Source of the DNA: Calditrichia bacterium | GTDB lineage: Bacteria > Calditrichota > Calditrichia > RBG-13-44-9 > J075 | Assembly (NCBI GenBank): GCA_028284905.1 | Contig: JANQQU010000043.1 | Coordinates: 186,001 to 250,000, forward strand | DNA: 64,000 nucleotides | Direction: 5' to 3' | Position numbers and translations under genes: made by a program | In this document: positions 13,509-27,622 of the stretch, in pieces | Numbering within the stretch: position 1 is the stretch's first letter | Layout: every line of letters begins with the position of its first letter | The notes under the pieces: generated by a model | Told to the model about the DNA's origin: nothing | What the model saw: the letters and a program-made list of their open reading frames with translations, nothing else | Database searches by the model: none

Positions 13509-14657
13509 CTAGAATGCTTCCTGGTAAATTTGCAGGAGAGACGCTTCGTCAACTTTGCGCGGGTTGAAATTGCCGGTCCACTGAGTCGCCGCATCGGCTG
13601 CCAGTTTCGGGAGGATTTCTGCATCAATGCCGCAAGATTGCAAATTCTCTGGCAGTTTCGCGGCTGCCTGCAGCTGTCGTAGACGCGTGATTAATTTTTC
13701 AACATCGCCATTCCCGGTCAGTTTCTGCAGATTGGCAGCCTGCACAAGATCGCCATAAAGACCGTTAACTATTGTGCTGTTATAGCGCATGACATGCGGG
13801 AGCATTAAACCGACAGCAATGCCGTGCGTAATGTTGAAACGGGCAGTGAGCGGATTTGCACAGGCATGTGCAGCGCCGAGCATGGAGTTTTCAATCGCCA
13901 AACCGGAGAAGTGAGCCCCTAATAGCATCTGTCCCCACGCTTCCGTATGAGATTTATCTTCCAAAACGGTTTCAAAATTTTTCTCGAGCATTTTCCAGGC
14001 TTCCCGGGCAAACATTTGCGAAATGGGATTGCGTTTGCTGGTAACATAACTTTCCAGGGCGTGAGAAACGGCATCAATACCGGTAACGACAGCAACATCC
14101 TGCGGCACACTTTTCGGGAGCAGCGGATCGAGAATTACCACCCGAAATCGTGCTTTAATATCCCCACAGGCCATTTTTCGATGATTTTCTTCCTGGGAAA
14201 TGAGCGCAAAGGATTGTCCTTCGCTGCCGGTGCCGGCTGTGGTCGGAATGCCAATCGAAGGAAGCATCGGTTCAGTCGCTTTGCCAACCCCCCAGTAGTC
14301 TTCCATCTTTCCGCCATTGGTATAGAGGAAGTTAATGCCTTTGGAACAATCCATCGCACTACCGCCCCCCAGGCCGATAATGCCGTCGATATCCCCGATT
14401 GATTTGGCAAACTGCACACCTTTTTCGACATGCCGGGTGGTAGGGTTCTCCTCCACGTCCTGAAAGATAAAAGTTGCTATACCGGCGGCCTGCAACGATT
14501 TTTCTGCAGCAGCGACATGCCCGGCATTCACAATGCCGGGATCCGTTACAATTAAAGCACGTTTGATGTTGAGTTCTTTGGTGAGCTCCCCCAGGCGTTG
14601 CAGGCTGTTTTCGCCAAAAATCATCCGGGTGGTGGGATTAAAATCAAAAGTCAGCAT
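13509..14657 (-). CDS. Iron-containing alcohol dehydrogenase
   Basis: 382 residues, full length for the Fe-ADH (type III) family. The N-terminal Rossmann-like domain holds GGGSAMDCSK at about residues 97-106. The iron ligands are in the C-terminal helical domain: Asp and His of TGIDAVSHALESY near 196-200, and His of GAAHACANPL and FNITHGIAVG near 264 and 278. It oxidises or reduces a primary alcohol/aldehyde pair with NAD(P); the substrate is not deducible. Transcribed alone or ahead of the propeller gene 110 nt downstream. Confidence 0.92.
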   Translation of the reverse strand: MLTFDFNPTTRMIFGENSLQRLGELTKELNIKRALIVTDPGIVNAGHVAAAEKSLQAAGIATFIFQDVEENPTTRHVEKGVQFAKSIGDIDGIIGLGGGSAMDCSKGINFLYTNGGKMEDYWGVGKATEPMLPSIGIPTTAGTGSEGQSFALISQEENHRKMACGDIKARFRVVILDPLLPKSVPQDVAVVTGIDAVSHALESYVTSKRNPISQMFAREAWKMLEKNFETVLEDKSHTEAWGQMLLGAHFSGLAIENSMLGAAHACANPLTARFNITHGIAVGLMLPHVMRYNSTIVNGLYGDLVQAANLQKLTGNGDVEKLITRLRQLQAAAKLPENLQSCGIDAEILPKLAADAATQWTGNFNPRKVDEASLLQIYQEAF

Positions 14658-14943
14658 AGTCGGTCCATTTTCTCGAATTCATATCGCGCAATCAGAATTA
14701 TTATAAGTGCTTTTTAGAAGATAGTTGCAAAAAACCGAATCGATGCGCCGTGGAATATAATCAACTGTTTACAGCGAAGAAATTGAAAAGAGAGTTAATC
14801 TGAAAACACCCTTATCGGAAATGATTCAAAAAGCATTATGGTCTCACTGTTAATAGCATTTTTTTTAATTGTAATAAGCCTGCGGATAGCTTAGGTTTAG
14901 GCGGAAGAAAACCTGTTGGATACTGATTTCCCCGGAGAAGAAT

Positions 14944-16206
14944 GTGGCAAAACATCAAAAGAAGCGACGGAAAACGGAAGAAGCGCCCGCACGTAAGCGA
15001 ATTACCTTTCGGGATGTGTTGGAGTCCCTGGAGAAATATGAACCGGAAAAGTTTACGCCGGGTATTAATCCGGAAACCCTCGCACACCTACCTTATCGTA
15101 AAGAACTGGCCCTGAAAAACGAAGCCTTACGAAAATTCTGGCAATTTACCCGTTTGCCGGGGCGAGCCTCACGGACATTGGCAGCCCCGCAGCCCCGGGA
15201 ATACCTTAGCACCAGTAACCGAAGAATTTTTGAACGGGGCGGGCATTTTTTTCTGTATTCTCCGGAAAAAAAAGATGTAAAAGCAAAACAGTTCTTTCAG
15301 CCCTCTTCCCTGGAAAACGCTAACTATCGTGCAGTATATAAATTTTTGGCGGAAAAGATCAATCAACCTGCCTATGTCAAGTTTGCCCGGATGTTAAATT
15401 TTATAACCGTGCGCGGTGGAGACAGTGGAATTGCGGTTGTTCTGAACATGACCAAACTTGATAGCTCCGTCGTTCGAAAAATGAAGAACCTTGCTAGCCA
15501 ACTGGTTGGCATGGATAAAAATGTCATCGCATTCTACGCCAGTCCTTTACAATTGAGAACCGGCCATTATCTCGGGATCAGCCGCCCAACTGGTCAGCTC
15601 CGTTTTAAAACGATCACCGGTCCGGATAAAATGCTGCTGGAGACAGGAACTCAGAAATTCCGTTATCCGCCAATGCTTTATTCGCCCTTAAACGAGGCAA
15701 TGGTGCCGGTGATGATCAATTCACTGAGAAATCTGATGCAGCCGCAGCCGCAGGAAAAACTCATTGATATCTTTTGTGGATATGGGTTATGGTCTCATTC
15801 GCTTGCCGGCAATTTCGCCGAAGTGCTGGGGATTGACATCGATGGATTGTGGGTAGATGCCGCCAATGCGAATTTCGGCCCGGGCAGCTCCCGGAAGCGC
15901 GTTCGTTTTATCTCCAAACGATTAAAGTCCAGCAATCTGGAGGAAGCATTGCTTAGCAAAACCAAAAGAAGCGAAACGGTGCTTCTCTCCCAATTTCCCG
16001 GCAATTTACCACCCGGTTTGCTAAAAACTCTTGCCGGACGTGGGCCGGAGAAGGTGCTGCATTTCTTTCACGATATAAATGATATGCCTTCCCGGTTGGG
16101 CGAATGGCGCAGTAATGGTTACCGCTTCTCGAAAATTGTTCCGGTAGATGCACTGCCCGGTGTGCCGATATTGAAAGCATTTGCATTATTGGAGAGGCTT
16201 TCTTAA
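14944..16206 (+). CDS. TrmA/RlmD-like SAM-dependent RNA methyltransferase homologue, catalytic residues lost
   Basis: 420 residues with a GTG start and GGAG 6 nt upstream. A Lys/Arg-rich N-terminus (residues 1-20) suits RNA binding. The class I methyltransferase domain begins near residue 270 with LIDIFCGYGLWS (SAM motif I) and GIDID, and ends in PVDALP..PILKAFALLER, matching the C-terminal signature of uracil-5 methyltransferases (PVDMFP.T.HVE). The DPPR motif is replaced by QFPGN and the catalytic Cys motif (SCNP) by FHDIN. No TRAM domain or Fe-S cysteine cluster. It is probably a homologue with altered chemistry or a non-catalytic RNA-binding protein. Confidence 0.8.
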   Translation: MAKHQKKRRKTEEAPARKRITFRDVLESLEKYEPEKFTPGINPETLAHLPYRKELALKNEALRKFWQFTRLPGRASRTLAAPQPREYLSTSNRRIFERGGHFFLYSPEKKDVKAKQFFQPSSLENANYRAVYKFLAEKINQPAYVKFARMLNFITVRGGDSGIAVVLNMTKLDSSVVRKMKNLASQLVGMDKNVIAFYASPLQLRTGHYLGISRPTGQLRFKTITGPDKMLLETGTQKFRYPPMLYSPLNEAMVPVMINSLRNLMQPQPQEKLIDIFCGYGLWSHSLAGNFAEVLGIDIDGLWVDAANANFGPGSSRKRVRFISKRLKSSNLEEALLSKTKRSETVLLSQFPGNLPPGLLKTLAGRGPEKVLHFFHDINDMPSRLGEWRSNGYRFSKIVPVDALPGVPILKAFALLERLS

Positions 16207-16341
16207 ACCGTCGGTTCTATTTTGTGCGTTTAATCGTTCGCTACCGACAGGAAATGTTTATTTTTCCAAAATAGTTCATAAACGAATATTATTTATCTGC
16301 TGCCAGAACAGGGTTTCTGCGCGCTACGAATATTGTTTCCC

Positions 16342-18165
16342 ATGAGAATTCTCAAAACTTTTACGATCCTTTGTTGCTTTTTGGGCACACTTTGCGCTCA
16401 GGAAGGGTATGAAGTCCAGAGTATTGAGTTTGAGGGAAATACTGCCTTTTCTGCTTCATCCCTTGCCTATTACATGGAAACTTACAGCGTTGGCGCACTT
16501 TCCAAGTTGATGCTTGGGAAAGACGTTTATCTGTTTTCACAAGAAATGCTCGATAGCGATGTGGATCGCCTGATCCGTTTCTATCAACGGGAGGGGTTCC
16601 TGCATGTGCAAATTGTCGCGGCCATCACATCTCAAAATCATCGTGAAAAGAAGCTGTCTCTACAAATTACCGTCACAGAAAATATGCCAGTCGAGATAGA
16701 GAGTGTCACTTATAACCTCATCGCAGATCCTGAGAACTACAATGAAGCAAACGCGTTGATTGATAATATCTGGCCGGAAATGAGTGCGATGATGGGGCAG
16801 CGGTTTCGGGATGAGGATGTTCGCAGCGCCCAGGAAGCCTTGGTCAAAAAATTTCAACAGCAAGGATTCCCTTACATACAAATCACGCCGCAAATCACCG
16901 TAAATGAACCTCAGAATACTGCAGAAATCACCTGGGATATAGAAAGCGGTCCTCGCTGTGTTTTTAGTGATATTTTTATTGCCGGTAATGAGCATATCAG
17001 TGAAAACTTAATCCGCAAGCAAACCGCCTTTCGTTCTGGCGATTTATTTGATATTAGAAAAATCGATGCTACCCAGAAAAGAATTTTTGACCTGGGGATA
17101 TTTACCATCGTTAGCGTCAGTGCCAGACTGGATGCAGCAACAAACAGCGAAGTGGCCGTTGAGATCCAGGTAAAAGAAGCGCCACGGTTGTCTGCCAAGT
17201 TTGGTGTTGGATACGGCCGTGAGGATCGATTTCGGGCATTTACGGAAACGCGCCGGCTGGGATTTCTGGGCGGTGCCCGTCGGGCGACTCTGGCACTGAA
17301 GCATTCCGGCCTGGAACCTTATAATGCTGATTTAAATTTTATCCAGCCGGCCTTTTTACATCCACGCTTAAGTTTGCGCATTAACCCATTTGCACTGCGG
17401 CAGAAAGAACCCGGTTTCCTTTTAAATCGCACCGGTAGTAGTATTGCCAAGCAATATGCACTCTTTGATTATACGACGACGACCATCAGTTATTCATTTG
17501 AACAGGTCGATCTGGATACCAGCAGTGTTACCAGCGGAACGGCCAGCAGCACCGATTTAACCGCTCTCTACAATAAGGCAAGCATTACCTTCGGCATTCT
17601 TCGAGACAATTCCCAACCTTTGTTTTTCCCGCTCAGCGGTTTTTATACCAGTCTTGTTTACAAATACTCCGGCGTTGGTTTTCGGAGCCGTTATCGTTAT
17701 CAACGGTTGCAGGGGGAAGTGCGCTGGTATCAGAAAATTAGCGGAAAATGGGTGTTTGCCAGCCGGATAAAAGGTGGCGTGGTAACATCTCGGGATACCG
17801 ATGGGTTTATCCCGGTAGAGGAAAGATTTTATGCCGGTGGCAGTAATTCCGTGCGGGGTTGGTCCCGGGCGAGGTTAGGACCCCAGGATGGCAGCGGCAT
17901 TCCTGTTGGTGGAAATAGTTTGTTGGAGATTGGTGGTGAGTTACGGTATCCATTATACGGATTATTGTCCGGAGTGGTTTTCGGGGATGCCGGCAATGTC
18001 TGGGAAAAATCCTGGCGATTTGAAACGACAGAACTCCGATACGCTCTGGGAATTGGTATTCGCTTCGAAACGCCGATTGGACCATTACGCCTGGATGCTG
18101 CACAACCGGTGTGGGATCCAAATAAAACGGTGCAAGTGCATGTCAGCGTGGGACAGGCTTTCTAA
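16342..18165 (+). CDS. tamA: TamA/BamA-type Omp85 outer-membrane protein
   Basis: 607 residues from the ATG at 16342, where the signal peptide (ending LCAQ) starts; a TTG at 16333 is in frame. POTRA domains occupy about residues 22-285, with the recurring pattern 'IEFEGNTAFS' and 'IFIAGNEHIS'. The Omp85 barrel follows, with the conserved GGSNSVRGW near residue 500 and a final strand ending in Phe (VHVSVGQAF). TamA inserts or assembles outer-membrane proteins, or with TamB moves phospholipids to the outer membrane. The next gene is the large TamB homologue, supporting TamA rather than BamA. No strong ribosome-binding site. Confidence 0.9.
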   Translation: MRILKTFTILCCFLGTLCAQEGYEVQSIEFEGNTAFSASSLAYYMETYSVGALSKLMLGKDVYLFSQEMLDSDVDRLIRFYQREGFLHVQIVAAITSQNHREKKLSLQITVTENMPVEIESVTYNLIADPENYNEANALIDNIWPEMSAMMGQRFRDEDVRSAQEALVKKFQQQGFPYIQITPQITVNEPQNTAEITWDIESGPRCVFSDIFIAGNEHISENLIRKQTAFRSGDLFDIRKIDATQKRIFDLGIFTIVSVSARLDAATNSEVAVEIQVKEAPRLSAKFGVGYGREDRFRAFTETRRLGFLGGARRATLALKHSGLEPYNADLNFIQPAFLHPRLSLRINPFALRQKEPGFLLNRTGSSIAKQYALFDYTTTTISYSFEQVDLDTSSVTSGTASSTDLTALYNKASITFGILRDNSQPLFFPLSGFYTSLVYKYSGVGFRSRYRYQRLQGEVRWYQKISGKWVFASRIKGGVVTSRDTDGFIPVEERFYAGGSNSVRGWSRARLGPQDGSGIPVGGNSLLEIGGELRYPLYGLLSGVVFGDAGNVWEKSWRFETTELRYALGIGIRFETPIGPLRLDAAQPVWDPNKTVQVHVSVGQAF

Positions 18166-18267: not shown

Positions 18268-21200
18268 ATGCAACGCTGGATAAAAATATCATTGATTTCT
18301 ATGGCCGGGATGGGCGGATTGTTTCTGCTGATTTTGGCGTTTACCCAGACCGGTATCTTTCGCAACTGGCTGAAGGAACAGGTGATTGCTGCCACGAATC
18401 CCATGCTGAATGGTGAACTGCGGATCGATGCACTCGATGGCAGTCTTTTCAGTAGCCTGGAAATCAATGGATTATACATTTATGACAGTAACGAAGATAC
18501 TGTTGCCGCGGTAAAACGCATTTACGCCGATTATGCGTTTTGGGATCTGCTGAGCGGCACAGTATGGCTGGATTCTGTGATTATCGATCAACCCCGGCTA
18601 TACCTGGCAGAACTGCCGGATAGCAGCTGGAATGTTGCTCATCTGGTAAAAACTGACAGCACTGCGCCACCACCGGACACCAGCAATTCGCCACTTGGCT
18701 GGGCAATCGAGTTAAGGCAATTCGATTTGCGTAACGGACATATCTATCTTCGTTCCGAAAATGAATTGATCCCAGAAAAAGTGCAGCGGATTAATAGCCG
18801 TTTCTCGGCTAGCTACCGGGATGACCAACAAGCTTTTACTTTGGCGCATTTCAGCTTTGCAACACTCCGCCCGGATTTTCAGCTGAACGAGGTTAGTTTT
18901 AAAGTTGCTATGCAGGAATCGTCCATTCATTTGGAAGATTTAATAGTGAAAAGCGCTGCGAATCAGTTGACGGGAGCGTTGCTCTATACAACGCCGGAGG
19001 ATACCAACACCCATGCCGAAATATCGACTGATCCGCTGGTCTTTCAGGAGTTTGAGTTTGCCATGCCGGATATCCATTTGAAGGTTCGGCCAAAGATAGA
19101 TCTCGTCGTTGATGTTCGTAAAGATTCCCTGGAATTCACCCTGGATATTCTGGAAAATAATCGTGGCATAGCATTAAAAGGGGGCGTTTCCCCGGTGAGC
19201 CGCTTTCTTGATAATTCCGTTAAACGACCTTGCTACGGAATCTCCGGAAATATACGTGCATTGGATCTTGCCCATTGGATGAACGACACAACGATGGCGC
19301 ATCTTATCAATGGCGATTTTTGGTTGCAGGGCTGTGGGATCGAGCCGGGTGACGCGGTGCTGGCTAGCAATCTAACGCTTTCCAATAGTGTCTTCAATGG
19401 TTTGGCAGTGGACAAGCTTGCCTTAAATGGCAGTTATAAGAATCGCAATGGCGCAGCAAAACTGCAAATAGATGGTGGCTTTGGAAATGTTCGCGCAAAT
19501 TTGCAGGCGCGGGATGTCCTCGATCAACAGCAATTTAAGGCGCAGCTAAATGCCCGAAATATTAACCTGGCTGCGATCAATGCGGATGATTCCCTGCAAA
19601 GCGATATCGATGCATTTGCAACCATCGATGGGGCGGGATTCGATCCGGCAGAAACTGTTTTTCGTTCTACCTTTCATCTCCGGCCATCCACAATTATGGA
19701 TTTATCGCTGGATACCATGTTTAGCGTAGTTACTGGGGTTGGGCAGGATTATCGGATCGATACGTTGGATCTTAAAACGCCCTACTTAAGTGCTGCGCTT
19801 TCCGGGAAAGCCAATCCTGATGCAGAGACAAACATCGCTTTCACGGGCCAACTTGGTGAGCTGAATTTGTTAAAACATTTTGCCGGCGCGGATTCCCTGG
19901 CAGCATCCGGGAAAATAAGCGGAAACATTTCCGGCCGGGGAAATGATTGGCAACTGGCAAGTGCTTTTGGCTTCAAAGAAATTGTTTTTAATGAAGTTGC
20001 GATTTCAAATATCGACGGAGCGCTAGATGCCTCCAGCGACCTGAAAAAATTTGCAGCGAATACAGTCGTCGATGTCCGGGAAACAAGTGTCGGGACTTTT
20101 CTGCTTGATCACTTGCAGCTTAACGTGGATGCAACGGATGAACAAACAAATTTGCTATTAAGCTTCAGGAATGCTGATAGCCTAAGTGGTATAGTTAATT
20201 CTGCTTTTATTCCGGGAGATGTCGCTGAAGTGCAACTGCCGGAAATAGACCTTAAATATCGCGAACTGCACTGGCAGGGTGGGGGAGCGGAGATGAAAAT
20301 TCTCCTTGATGCTGATGAGGTCATTTTTGAAGATATTCGTTTAGCCGCTCCCCATCGCGAAGGCGGTGAGCAATACCTGCACCTCGATGGCAGCTTTAGC
20401 ATGACCGGGGAAGAAAGCCTGAAGTTGGAAATTGTGAATGTGGACATCGCGCCGTTAGCTGCAATTGCACAAAGCGAGATCCCGGTTGGAGGCAATTTTA
20501 ATGCGCAGATGTTACTTGCTGGGAATGCAGATGCACCAATCCTTGATGGACACTTTGGCATATCTAATGGTTCGGTCGCCTCAATGAAATATGAATCTTT
20601 CCATACCCGTTTTGACTATGCCCGGGAAAAATTTTCCTGGCGCAGTGGATTCCGTCCCGCCAGTGAAGACAGTATCAACCTTAACGGCTACTTTCCACTC
20701 AACCTTGCCTTGAATAACACCGGCGATGTGATTTTCAGTGATCGCCCGCTGGAAATTGTTTTGCATACTGCCGGATTTGCACTGTCCCAATTAAATGCTA
20801 CGCCAGAAAGTGTTGAGACGCTGAAGGGGACAATCACCAGTGACCTGCGAGTGACAAATACTTTAAATGATATCCGTACCAATGGATATTTTCGCCTGCA
20901 GGAAGGTGTTCTGCAAGCGTCGGCGTTTGGACTGGATTATGAGCAAATGTTGGTGGATGTTAGTGCCGACAGTGCCCGTATCAATTTGAATAATCTGCAA
21001 ATCCATCGCGAGGAAGGATTGCTAAAAGCAAATGGGCATGTAGCATTTGACAGTAGCCTGGTTAGTGGACAAATACGCACGACGCTCTTTGAAATGACCG
21101 CAGATAACTTTGTCGTCGCCCGCAACAATGACTTCGAGATTCAAATCTCCGGTAACAGCAAAATTGCCGGTGCGCCGGAAGCCTTGGAATATGGCGGAGG

Positions 21201-22155
21201 TATAGAAATCCTTCGCTCCAGTGTTTACCTGCCTGCATTTATTGATGAAACACCTCCGCCGGTATACGACGATGCCTATCCCATGCTGGTAGCCGCTACT
21301 CAAAAAGATAGTTTGCTGCAGGATGGTGTTGCGGCGGATTCAATTGTCAATCCAGATGCAGCGGATGCTACCTCGGAGATTTTCGAGAATTTGCGTGGTT
21401 CCCTGAAACTGAGTATTCCCCGCAATACCTGGATTAAAAGCAAGGAAATGCGCATGGAATTGTCCGGCGACTTGGACATCGTTAAAAACGGGCCGGAATT
21501 TGAAATTTTTGGCCCGGTTGAAATTATGCGTGGGCATTACGAAATGCTTGGACGCCGCTTCACCGTTCAGGAAGGCGTGCTCACATTCCAGGGCGGTAGC
21601 GAATACGATCCGAATGTACTATTAGTTGCCGATCATGTTTTCCGCACTGCTTCCCGGGATAAGAAAACGCTCACCTTAAAAGTAACTGGCACGGCCTTTC
21701 AACCGGTTATTTCATTTTTGCTGGATGAAGACGCGATTAACGAAGGTGATGCTATTGCCTATTTGTTCTTTGGCCGTTCAATGGATGAATTGACATCTTC
21801 GCAAAAATCCGGCATAGCCAGCGAGGAAAGTGGTTTGGCAGAACAAGGCGTTTCAGCAGGGATAGGGATGGCAACAGCGATGGTGACGCAGGCAGTCGGG
21901 CGAAAATTCAACCTCGATTATATAGAATTAAAAGGTGAGGACAATTGGCAGAAAGCGACTTTTGTTGCCGGGAAATATATCACCAACGACCTGTTTATGA
22001 GCTATGAGCGGGATATCGATTTTACACAGTCTGAGCAATCCGGCGATGAAACAATTTCTCTGGAATATGAATTGATTCGCCATCTCTATTTGCAACTGAT
22101 TCAGGGCAGTCCAACGAAAAGCGGGGCGGAATTAATCCTGAAAATTGAAAGATAG
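18268..22155 (+). CDS. tamB: TamB-like translocation/assembly and lipid-transport protein (DUF490)
   Basis: 1295 residues. An N-terminal transmembrane anchor spans about residues 7-27. A very long periplasmic stretch of repeated beta strands with frequent Asp and Asn follows, as in AsmA-like and VPS13-like lipid-channel proteins. The last 300 residues match the TamB domain: GHYEMLGRRFTVQEGVL, FQGGSEYDPN, AIAYLFFGRS, and a C-terminal strand with LSLEYEL and GAELILKIER. TamB spans the periplasm between the inner membrane and TamA. It begins 102 nt after tamA on the same strand. Length is within the family range. Confidence 0.93.
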   Translation: MQRWIKISLISMAGMGGLFLLILAFTQTGIFRNWLKEQVIAATNPMLNGELRIDALDGSLFSSLEINGLYIYDSNEDTVAAVKRIYADYAFWDLLSGTVWLDSVIIDQPRLYLAELPDSSWNVAHLVKTDSTAPPPDTSNSPLGWAIELRQFDLRNGHIYLRSENELIPEKVQRINSRFSASYRDDQQAFTLAHFSFATLRPDFQLNEVSFKVAMQESSIHLEDLIVKSAANQLTGALLYTTPEDTNTHAEISTDPLVFQEFEFAMPDIHLKVRPKIDLVVDVRKDSLEFTLDILENNRGIALKGGVSPVSRFLDNSVKRPCYGISGNIRALDLAHWMNDTTMAHLINGDFWLQGCGIEPGDAVLASNLTLSNSVFNGLAVDKLALNGSYKNRNGAAKLQIDGGFGNVRANLQARDVLDQQQFKAQLNARNINLAAINADDSLQSDIDAFATIDGAGFDPAETVFRSTFHLRPSTIMDLSLDTMFSVVTGVGQDYRIDTLDLKTPYLSAALSGKANPDAETNIAFTGQLGELNLLKHFAGADSLAASGKISGNISGRGNDWQLASAFGFKEIVFNEVAISNIDGALDASSDLKKFAANTVVDVRETSVGTFLLDHLQLNVDATDEQTNLLLSFRNADSLSGIVNSAFIPGDVAEVQLPEIDLKYRELHWQGGGAEMKILLDADEVIFEDIRLAAPHREGGEQYLHLDGSFSMTGEESLKLEIVNVDIAPLAAIAQSEIPVGGNFNAQMLLAGNADAPILDGHFGISNGSVASMKYESFHTRFDYAREKFSWRSGFRPASEDSINLNGYFPLNLALNNTGDVIFSDRPLEIVLHTAGFALSQLNATPESVETLKGTITSDLRVTNTLNDIRTNGYFRLQEGVLQASAFGLDYEQMLVDVSADSARINLNNLQIHREEGLLKANGHVAFDSSLVSGQIRTTLFEMTADNFVVARNNDFEIQISGNSKIAGAPEALEYGGGIEILRSSVYLPAFIDETPPPVYDDAYPMLVAATQKDSLLQDGVAADSIVNPDAADATSEIFENLRGSLKLSIPRNTWIKSKEMRMELSGDLDIVKNGPEFEIFGPVEIMRGHYEMLGRRFTVQEGVLTFQGGSEYDPNVLLVADHVFRTASRDKKTLTLKVTGTAFQPVISFLLDEDAINEGDAIAYLFFGRSMDELTSSQKSGIASEESGLAEQGVSAGIGMATAMVTQAVGRKFNLDYIELKGEDNWQKATFVAGKYITNDLFMSYERDIDFTQSEQSGDETISLEYELIRHLYLQLIQGSPTKSGAELILKIER

Positions 22156-24790: not shown

Positions 24791-27622
24791 ATGGCAGCAA
24801 AAAAACAACGATCTTTTCTTAAACTTACCGCAATTTCTGTCTTATTAATTGTCGCTAACAGTATTTATTTGCTCGGCTTTGGCGGCGCAAGTTTCTTCTA
24901 TATTTTTAATATTCTTCTGCACCTCGGTTTAGGAGTTTTAGTTACAATCGGTGGTGCCTTGCTCCTGCGACGTGTTTTTCCGGAAGCGATGAAAGGAAAA
25001 GGCGTTTCTCTGTTTGTTGTTGGGGCGATCCTTTTTGTCGTCAGCGTTGTTAGCGGTATTGCGATTATTATTTGGGGAAATTCCAGCAAAACCGCGCTAT
25101 TGCTGCACGGACATATTTTTGCCAGTTTTTTTAGTGTGATTTTACTTCTGCTGTGGATGTGGGGGAGTGGCCGCCTGGCATCCGTTAGTAGCGGTGTTAA
25201 ATTTGGTAGTGCCATTGCCCTGGTCGCTGTTGTTGTCGCGACAATCATCGGTAGTGAGATCTCCGATGCCCAATATGCGATTAATAATCCCGGACTTTTA
25301 CCGGCAACATTGGAAGAAGAAGCAATGGGCGGAAAGGATGGCCCCTTCTTTCCCAGCGCATCCGCGACCAGCGACGGTAAATTAATTCCCGCGAACTTTT
25401 TCACCGATTCGAAAAGCTGTGCCCGTTCCGGCTGCCATCCGGATATCTACGAACAATGGGAATCTTCGGCCCATCATTTTTCATCTTTCAATAATCAGTG
25501 GTACCGCAAATCGATTGAATACATGCAGGAAATTACCGGACCGGAAGCCGCCAAATGGTGCAGTGGCTGTCACGATCCGGCCTTGCTGTTTAGCGGACAG
25601 ATGGATATGTTAGTCAAGGATTTCATCGATAAGCCGGAAGCACATGCCGGCTTGGGATGCGTTGCTTGTCATAATATTGTCGGTGTGCAAAACACGATGG
25701 GGAATGGTGCTTACGTCATCGAATATCCCGAATTACATGATATGCTTGCCAGCAATAATAAGTTTATCCAGATGGTCCATGATTTTATCCTGAAGATCGA
25801 CCCGGAACCGCATAAACGCACTTTCATGAAGCCGTTTCATACCCGCCAAACTGCGGAGTTCTGCTCTTCCTGTCATAAAGTACATCTGGATGTGCCAGTG
25901 AATAACTATCGCTGGGTACGTGGCTTTAATACCTACGATAACTGGCAAGCCAGTGGGGTTTCCGGGCAGGGCGCCCGTTCATTCTATTATCCGCAATCGC
26001 CGCAGGATTGCGCCAGTTGCCACATGCCCGAGGTGGCTTCGAATGATGCCGGCAATGTCGATGGCAAGGTTCATAACCATCGCTTCCTTGCTGCAAATAC
26101 CGCTTTACCGGTGGCGAACAAGGACACGCTTCAACTGGCATTGACGGAAGCTTTTCTGAAAGCGCGCCAGCTGACTCTGGATGTTTTTGCCGTTAGTGAG
26201 TCTGTACCTATCACTGATGAAGGCAGCGGTAATCGCTTTGGCGAACAAGGCGCGGCACTAGCTACTTCTTTTGCCGTGGGAGAAGAATCCGGGTTCTCCA
26301 TTGGCGGCGGCCGGGGAATTACCGGTGGCGTCAGTAAAATTGTTGCACCGTTGCAAGACGGCATGCAGGTGCTGAAGCGCGGTGAATCAGTGCGTCTGGA
26401 TGTTGTTGTGCGCACTCGCGGTATCGGGCACTTCTTTCCCTCCGGCACGGTTGATGCTCAGGAAGCCTGGCTGGAAGTGAAAGCCGTCGATAGTCGCGGT
26501 AAAACCATCTTTTGGAGCGGCGCTGTGGCCGATGATGGGAAAGGGCCGGTCGATCCCTCCGCGCATTTTTATCGCAACATGATGCTCGATGCAAAAGGAA
26601 ACCTGATCAACAAGCGGAATGCCTTTGCGAGTCGTTCAGTGCTTTACGTGAATCTAATTCCACCCGGGGCGGCTGATATCGGCCATTATCGCCTGAACAT
26701 ACCAAAAGATTGTGGCGATGAGGTAACTATTACTGCTAAGCTCCATTATCGCAAATTCAACTGGTGGCATACCCAATGGGCTTATGCCGGCGAGCGCGAT
26801 CCGAATCAACCAAATTATGAAGCGACCCGTGATTATGATAACGGCAATTGGAAATTTACCGGCAATTTGGAGAATGTCTCCGGAAAGTTGAAAGAAATTC
26901 CGGTGCTTCCAATCGTGACCATGGGCGAAGATTCCTTAACCTTAAAAGTGGCTGGTCGTACCCAGGCATTAGTCAGTGAAGGTAACAGCATTAAAAAAGA
27001 TCGGGAAGCCTGGAATGACTATGGTATTGGATTATTATTAGAAGGAGATTTGAAAGGGGCAGAGCGCGCTTTCCGGCAGGTGACGCATTTGGAACCGGAA
27101 TATGTCGACGGCTGGATTAATCTTGCCCGAATTTATCTCCGCGAGGGAAATCTGGACAAAGCGGAAAGCGTATTGGATAGCGCCGATGCCTACGATTCCA
27201 ATTTCCACAAAAACAAATTCTTCCGGGGGCTATACTACAAAGCGAATGGTGATTATGAACTCGCGCTGAAAGAATTAAAAGCAGTGGCCGATCTTTATCC
27301 GAAAGACCGGGTCGTGCAAAACCAAATTGGACGAATCTACTTTCTGGATTCCCAGCCGGAGGTGGCAATTCCTTACTTTGAAAGTGCCTTGTTGATCGAT
27401 AGTGAAGATTTAATGGCGCATTATAATCTGATGCTTTGCTACCGGGCGGTGGGAAATATGGAAAAATCCCAGGCGCATGAAACTCGCTACCTGCGCTATA
27501 AAGCCGATGAATCCGCCCGGGCAATTTCCCAGGAATACCGCCAGAATAATCCGCATGATAACAATGAAGCGCAGGCTATTCATGAGCATCAGTCCATGGA
27601 CCTGAAAAAAATCAAGCGGTAG
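24791..27622 (+). CDS. Membrane-bound pentaheme cytochrome c with C-terminal TPR domain
   Basis: 943 residues. Four or five transmembrane segments fill residues 12-155, including a His-containing one (LLLHGHIFASFF). A periplasmic multiheme domain follows, with five c-type sites: CARSGCH (CX4CH) near residue 209, CSGCH near 256, CVACH near 289, CSSCH near 357 and CASCH near 407. The first is in the cytochrome c554-like context 'CHPDIYEQW'. A beta-rich domain spans about 470-720, and three to four TPR repeats span about 735-900 (AWNDYGIGLLLEGDLKGAERAF onward). Likely an electron-transfer protein in respiration, with the TPR part recruiting partners. GGAG precedes the ATG. Confidence 0.88.
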   Translation: MAAKKQRSFLKLTAISVLLIVANSIYLLGFGGASFFYIFNILLHLGLGVLVTIGGALLLRRVFPEAMKGKGVSLFVVGAILFVVSVVSGIAIIIWGNSSKTALLLHGHIFASFFSVILLLLWMWGSGRLASVSSGVKFGSAIALVAVVVATIIGSEISDAQYAINNPGLLPATLEEEAMGGKDGPFFPSASATSDGKLIPANFFTDSKSCARSGCHPDIYEQWESSAHHFSSFNNQWYRKSIEYMQEITGPEAAKWCSGCHDPALLFSGQMDMLVKDFIDKPEAHAGLGCVACHNIVGVQNTMGNGAYVIEYPELHDMLASNNKFIQMVHDFILKIDPEPHKRTFMKPFHTRQTAEFCSSCHKVHLDVPVNNYRWVRGFNTYDNWQASGVSGQGARSFYYPQSPQDCASCHMPEVASNDAGNVDGKVHNHRFLAANTALPVANKDTLQLALTEAFLKARQLTLDVFAVSESVPITDEGSGNRFGEQGAALATSFAVGEESGFSIGGGRGITGGVSKIVAPLQDGMQVLKRGESVRLDVVVRTRGIGHFFPSGTVDAQEAWLEVKAVDSRGKTIFWSGAVADDGKGPVDPSAHFYRNMMLDAKGNLINKRNAFASRSVLYVNLIPPGAADIGHYRLNIPKDCGDEVTITAKLHYRKFNWWHTQWAYAGERDPNQPNYEATRDYDNGNWKFTGNLENVSGKLKEIPVLPIVTMGEDSLTLKVAGRTQALVSEGNSIKKDREAWNDYGIGLLLEGDLKGAERAFRQVTHLEPEYVDGWINLARIYLREGNLDKAESVLDSADAYDSNFHKNKFFRGLYYKANGDYELALKELKAVADLYPKDRVVQNQIGRIYFLDSQPEVAIPYFESALLIDSEDLMAHYNLMLCYRAVGNMEKSQAHETRYLRYKADESARAISQEYRQNNPHDNNEAQAIHEHQSMDLKKIKR

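Follow-up and report, generated by a model that had tools for sequence, protein, structure and literature searches.

A degenerate RlmC/RlmD-like protein of a Calditrichia bacterium that lacks the uridine pocket of the m5U methyltransferases

The window considered here, a stretch of 64,000 nucleotides on contig 61 of an 8.55 Mb Calditrichia genome, contains a gene for a protein that resembles the RlmC and RlmD uracil-5 (m5U) methyltransferases. The gene and the sites discussed below are listed in Table 1. Upstream lies a divergent gene for an iron-containing alcohol dehydrogenase (13509-14657, minus strand), and downstream, on the same strand as the methyltransferase-like gene, come an Omp85/POTRA gene (16333-18165) and tamB (18268-22155). 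The tamA-tamB loci of two other genomes that were examined (G008 and G005) are syntenic with this region and have no methyltransferase-like gene upstream; we therefore claim no functional link to the Omp85/POTRA-TamB pair. A Pfam scan of ten neighbouring genes found neither a regulator nor an RNA-related gene, three of the ten having no match at all. Further along, the window also encodes a 943-residue protein (24791-27622, plus strand) in which a cytochrome c554-like/MtrC-like region is followed by TPR repeats. The codon index of the methyltransferase-like gene, 0.716, falls inside the range of 15 other window genes (0.695-0.769) and its GC3 is 0.50, codon usage being a weak discriminator here because the other two forward frames also score 0.636 and 0.684.

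Table 1. The methyltransferase-like gene and its altered and retained sites, in window coordinates.
Feature	Position	Strand	Basis
GGAG, Shine-Dalgarno-like, six bases 5' of the GTG	14934..14937	+	read from the sequence
Gene for a degenerate RlmC/RlmD-like protein, 420 residues, GTG start	14944..16206	+	no internal stop in 420 codons
Basic tail at the N-terminus (residues 1-19; net charge +7)	14944..15000	+	charge count
Leu88 where RlmCD has the YR arginine (R127, RNA contact)	15205..15207	+	Arg in 41 of 41 A3 relatives; R127 contact from the available part of PMC6235398
Tyr246-Ser-Pro248 in place of F-x-Q (RlmCD F281, Q283)	15679..15687	+	RlmCD profile and family alignments
SAM motif I, intact, DIFCGYG, residues 275-281	15766..15786	+	alignment
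SQFP (349-352) in place of DPPR (RlmCD D381-R384)	15988..15999	+	subfamily alignment
His376 where RlmCD has the nucleophilic Cys (C408)	16069..16071	+	alignment; covalent C408 from the available part of PMC6235398
Lys411 where RlmCD has the general-base Glu (E443)	16174..16176	+	alignment; E443 from the available part of PMC6235398

To which family does such a protein belong? None of the Pfam or NCBIfam models reaches its cut-off, the best being PF05958 (tRNA_U5-meth_tr; 21.1 bits, under the Pfam cut-off of 23) and RlmD models (38 bits for that of NCBIfam, where the cut-off is 458). A search of the PDB with the single sequence left RlmCD and an unrelated methyltransferase, 3ccf, tied at an E-value of 0.0008 each, a tie that we resolve toward the m5U family because profile and structure comparisons favour RlmCD. 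An AlphaFold2 model from a 42-row alignment has a pLDDT of 88.3 and a pTM of 0.88; residues 1-9 are of low confidence, and the ten-residue blocks containing residues 246-248, 349-352, 376 and 411 lie at pLDDT 82-95. This model is biased to the family fold, since the alignment included relatives that keep the active site (one with Ser for Cys). When compared with known structures by VIA-align it matches RlmCD (5zq0) with a Z-score of 37.2 and an rmsd of 2.9 over 379 residues, RumA (2bh2) with 35.0, TrmA (3bt7) with 32.4 and archaeal m5U enzymes with 30-31. The nine top rows, at Z 30-37, are all m5U methyltransferases and the next, the tRNA m1G37 methyltransferase 2yx1, stands at 16.1; Foldseek places the same families in its first ranks. 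The overall fold is thus predicted to be that of the RlmCD/RlmD/TrmA family. No different methyltransferase family gives a closer match, either by profile, where there is no better Pfam or NCBIfam model, or by structure, where the nine best rows are m5U enzymes.

The nearest relatives form a subfamily of RlmC/RlmD-like proteins in which no TRAM domain was found in the six members scanned, and for which no NCBIfam model scored over its cut-off in the four members tested. A protein search of 385 genomes matched 33 at E-values up to 1e-6, the source genome included; three of these matches were near full-length, with E-values below 1e-48, and the rest were much weaker. A profile built from four rows (A1) matched 134 of 167 Fibrobacter-phylum genomes at 1e-15, lower-scoring canonical types included, and nine of nine genomes of another phylum, seven of them above 300 bits. 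A second, of 17 rows (A2), confirmed 571 stretches, and the 80 best of these provided named loci from Fibrobacteres, deltaproteobacterial groups, Acidobacteria, Lentisphaerae, Ignavibacteria, KSB1, Aminicenantes and others. Members without motif I or the C-terminal Glu stretch are under-sampled in this set, as these were the two search patterns. After thinning at 75% identity, 74 rows, ten of them chosen canonical types, were placed in a tree (rows shorter than 330 residues and the loci L146, L153 and L187 were dropped), which splits the 64 subfamily rows, the window protein among them, from the ten canonical types at 100/100. No end branch of this tree is longer than that of the window protein, 1.58 compared with a median of 0.41, and the position of the protein inside the subfamily is not fixed. 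Its identity to 41 aligned relatives is 22-34%. To judge from sequence, it descends from, and groups with, this TRAM-less subfamily of ten or more phyla.

The subfamily is widespread. At the loci L123-L202 the catalytic residues are conserved, mostly with HxFC[GD] where canonical enzymes have SCNP, and a possible FeS pattern, C-x(4,12)-C-x2-C, occurs near the N-terminus in 13 of 143 rows. One Ignavibacteria member (L184:2652-4250, plus strand) has Ser for the catalytic Cys, in HVFS, and keeps DPPR, Gln and Glu. At 43 subfamily loci no neighbour is common to more than nine, gene-overlapping ORFs aside, and distance and strand vary. A DEAD-box helicase with a DbpA domain adjoins the subfamily gene at L126:4374-6119, possibly by chance. 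At L129 the subfamily gene directly follows an ABC ATPase with an ABC_tran_Xtn domain, which we take to be ABC-F-like, and ORFs of the same sequence cluster lie upstream in L139 and L141, again possibly by chance. In the family f262, the frames of nine loci (L102-L107, L109, L111 and L114) extend about 50-240 residues past the methyltransferase domain; by eye, basic residues abound in the extensions of L102, L106, L107 and L109.

SAM motif I of the window protein is intact. With the residue register taken from a profile alignment to RlmCD together with the family alignment, D275, C278, G279 and G281 of motif I are kept and the motif II acid is D298, in agreement with the TrmA/RlmD-type SAM motif of the original prediction. 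C278, at a position that is Cys in 135 of 142 readable subfamily relatives, is the only Cys of the whole protein; a nucleophilic Cys has thus not simply been overlooked. Because there is no Cys in the N-terminal half, cluster cysteines of the RlmC/RlmD type are absent as well, a 4Fe-4S cluster being typical of E. coli RlmC and RlmD.

This contrasts with the state of the uridine pocket. In RlmCD, according to the available part of PMC6235398, the flipped uridine is contacted by F281, Q283 and D381 and by residue 443, which is Glu in the wild-type enzyme and Gln in the crystal; R384 touches the ribose of the target uridine and C408 is bonded to uridine C6; E443 acts as the general base, and R127 contacts RNA. 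All six of these uridine contacts are changed in the window protein: F281Y, which is conservative, Q283P, D381S, R384P, C408H and E443K. The original prediction had described the loss of DPPR and of the catalytic Cys, and both losses are real. The first site reads S349-Q350-F351-P352, the previously quoted QFPGN being the same stretch one residue on, and the second is H376. Pairwise alignment to RlmCD sets Q350, not S349, opposite the DPPR Asp, and the acid is absent in both registers. To these must be added changes that had not been described, namely Gln to Pro248, Glu to Lys411, the DPPR Arg to Pro352, Phe to Tyr246 and the RNA-contact Arg to Leu88.

The Q283A mutant of RlmCD retains about 8% activity on U747 RNA and about 50% on U1939 RNA, and D381A about 2% and about 4%, respectively, with RNA binding not severely affected in either, as reported in the available part of PMC6235398. 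SAM affinity was independent of F281 and D381 (PMC5614603, available in part). From the known mechanism of the family it follows that the window protein should not form m5U by the Cys mechanism. With the defining Cys, Glu, Asp and Gln absent, it is a homologue that, on its residues, does not count among the functional m5U methyltransferases (COG2265: TrmA, RlmC, RlmD, RlmCD). The earlier suggestion that it must use another chemistry or none still stands, and we judge none the more likely, because Glu, Asp, Gln and Arg have been lost in addition to the Cys.

The changed residues are near-invariant elsewhere. Among 143 subfamily rows besides the window protein, some of them the same protein entered twice, Gln, Asp and Glu are found in every row that could be read at the site (142, 141 and 140 rows, respectively). 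Of 141 readable rows, 140 have the DPPR Arg and 140 the catalytic Cys, the exception for the Cys being the Ser of L184, and the YR Arg is present in all but one of the 143. The 60 canonical-type ORFs have the Cys in 59, the Glu in all 60 and the Asp in 55, with four Asn and one Thr; the four NPPR variants (L038, L014, L030 and L008) keep Cys and Glu. A separate degenerate homologue, of the canonical RlmD type, is present in a genome of the same family as the source genome (G004, L011:1471-2916, minus strand), with TPPK for DPPR, Pro for Cys, Glu for Gln and His for the motif I Asp; its C-terminal Glu is kept.

Could the pocket residues have been lost simply because the whole protein has diverged? 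The window protein keeps 40 of the 64 columns that are conserved in at least 85% of the 41 relatives, whereas the least conserved of the relatives still has 53 of 62. Against this background of 24 changed columns in 64, the change of six uridine contacts out of six has a hypergeometric p of 0.0018, with the conservative F to Y counted, or 0.0006 when R127 is added. In these alignments the pocket loss exceeds the general divergence of the gene. A simple frameshift is not the cause, since neither DPPR nor a Cys in a family-like setting appears at these positions in the other two forward frames.

Two further members of the family, L001 on contig 93 and L002 on contig 13, are present in the same genome with DPPR and SCNP intact, so that the second, intact paralogue looked for in the follow-up does exist. 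Elsewhere in the phylum the gene is rare. Across 40 phylum genomes the A2 profile scores 312 bits for the window gene and at most 161 bits in the other 39; three of the 40 have no A2 match at 1e-6, some assemblies being incomplete (down to 62%). The gene, the sole subfamily-level match in these genomes and missing from the G008 and G005 loci, must have been gained in this genome or lost elsewhere. An intact subfamily member occurs at L132, in a record whose name, 'Calditrichaeota', may point to the same phylum. A scan of genome contigs with the protein alone confirmed no close relative (37 pattern matches), viral contigs gave none (17 pattern matches) and phages none, and on plasmids the matches were limited to three places, each annotated rlmD, with 21-24% identity. 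No second member with the same active-site losses was found in the collections sampled, and the literature searched, with partial coverage, held no dead bacterial COG2265 protein and no account of the TRAM-less subfamily.

The Lys/Arg-rich N-terminus, from which RNA binding had originally been suggested, proves to be part of a positive charge that extends over the whole protein. The net charge of the protein is +30, or +7.1 per 100 residues, the highest of 33 chosen window ORFs. Over the aligned region it is +23, whereas the 41 relatives have a median of +8 and reach +18 at most. A lineage effect may contribute to this, since the paralogue L001, at +14, is likewise the most basic of ten canonical proteins; the effect is not genome-wide, L002 having a charge of -8.

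We favour the view, with a probability of roughly 0.55, that the protein is a pseudoenzyme derived from the RlmC/RlmD-like subfamily and kept for a non-catalytic role in RNA binding or folding. On this interpretation the predicted fold and, in sequence, the SAM loop have been retained, while the loss of the uridine pocket and of the known catalytic groups would leave no m5U formation by the Cys mechanism. The basic surface and tail would bind structured RNA, either rRNA or tRNA, and so help its folding or assembly, and methylation would come from the two intact paralogues. RNA binding, SAM binding and function are each something that we infer for this protein. Two observations temper the proposal. 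With the YR arginine and the pocket for the target base gone, the protein may have lost its hold on the ancestral RNA, and the number of conserved columns kept, far below that of the 41 relatives, would fit relaxed selection too.

The loss is a real observation and not an artefact, and decay or the acquisition of a new function could also account for it. A decaying gene, that is, a horizontally acquired or leftover methyltransferase that has lost its function and is drifting in a frame still unbroken, is a possible though doubtful explanation. It would be consistent with the long end branch, with the 24 changed columns and with the sporadic occurrence of the gene, which is found in one of the 40 phylum genomes and not at the tamA-tamB loci of G008 and G005. 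However, the 420 codons are free of stops despite a divergence of about 66%, whereas simulated drift nearly always brings stops. Of 200 simulated runs at each level of identity, 26 were stop-free at 90%, none at 80%, one at 70% and none at 60%, and at 34%, the highest identity of the real protein to any relative in the tree, every one of the 200 had at least seven stops. Long neutral decay is therefore unlikely, although part of the divergence stems from functional ancestors and relatives, so that the simulation weighs against long drift and not against recent loss. The Shine-Dalgarno-like site, the intact SAM motif and the raised positive charge also count against decay.

A second alternative is that the protein has become a SAM-dependent enzyme with another substrate, which it methylates or on which it otherwise uses SAM through His376, Lys411 or other residues of a rebuilt pocket. 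The preservation of motif I and of D298 would suit such an enzyme, as would the replacement of the active site within an intact frame, the fairly confident model at the pocket and the independence of SAM affinity from F281 and D381 in RlmCD. We nevertheless regard it as unlikely. The motif IV position here has no acid, no Cys and no N/D-P-P-Y/F group; Asp, Glu, Gln and Arg have all gone, and no relative in the genomes searched has a new residue set in common with it. Still less probable, indeed very unlikely, is a regulator that senses SAM, in which SAM or SAH in the kept pocket would switch RNA binding. The survival of motif I beside a lost uridine pocket would be expected of such a protein, but the motif I residues may serve folding, and the ten neighbours scanned with Pfam include no regulator or RNA-related gene. 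Taken more broadly, a SAM-binding COG2265 protein whose rebuilt pocket serves either a new Cys-free reaction or SAM-controlled RNA binding is also unlikely in our estimate. An error of sequencing, assembly or alignment can be dismissed almost completely, even though a single genome is involved, as the altered positions are spread over distinct parts of a single open frame, the other forward frames restore no motif and the flanks align well.

If the protein is indeed a retained pseudoenzyme, it bears on the open question of whether m5U enzymes are kept for the methyl mark or for their action on RNA folding, both of which are performed by TrmA. A natural bacterial homologue without the catalytic groups, alongside intact paralogues, would separate the two roles. 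The protein also serves as a warning that proteins called RlmD-like from domain hits need not methylate.

Compared with known systems, the closest likeness is to the TRAM-less RlmC/RlmD-like subfamily of Fibrobacterota, Thermodesulfobacteriota, Acidobacteriota, Lentisphaerota and others, with which the window protein has near full-length homology, the same order of motifs and a motif I of the DLYCGYG type. In the relatives, however, F, Q, DPPR, Cys and Glu are nearly always present, whereas the window protein has lost them all, the F by a conservative change to Y, and is more basic. Along nearly its entire length it is predicted to fold like RlmCD (S. pneumoniae SP_1029) and RlmD/RumA (E. coli), and SAM motif I is common to all three; in contrast to these enzymes it has no catalytic Cys, Glu, Asp or Gln and falls under the PF05958 cut-off. 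Bovine TRMT2B, an m5U54 methyltransferase homologue, is described in the available part of PMC7237155 as having Tyr in place of the Cys, as apparently inactive and as perhaps solely a chaperone. It belongs to the same superfamily and, like the window protein, has another residue at the site of the nucleophilic Cys while being otherwise intact. From what that part of the source describes, TRMT2B is otherwise highly conserved, whereas the window protein is highly diverged and changed throughout its pocket; it is also a bacterial protein, and its genome carries intact paralogues. E. coli TrmA, which has the fold predicted here, is a tRNA chaperone, and modification enzymes can affect tRNA folding without modification (PMC11301382, available in part); TrmA is also an active enzyme, and for the window protein a chaperone role would be an inference. 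Finally, the TrmFO-like proteins of mycoplasmas have Tyr in place of both catalytic Cys residues, with an extended electropositive surface in several species and electronegative patches in the models for M. bovis and M. agalactiae, according to the available part of PMC7226160. They belong to a folate/FAD-dependent family unrelated to COG2265, and as far as that account goes they provide a parallel case in which the loss of Cys is accompanied by a wider positive surface.
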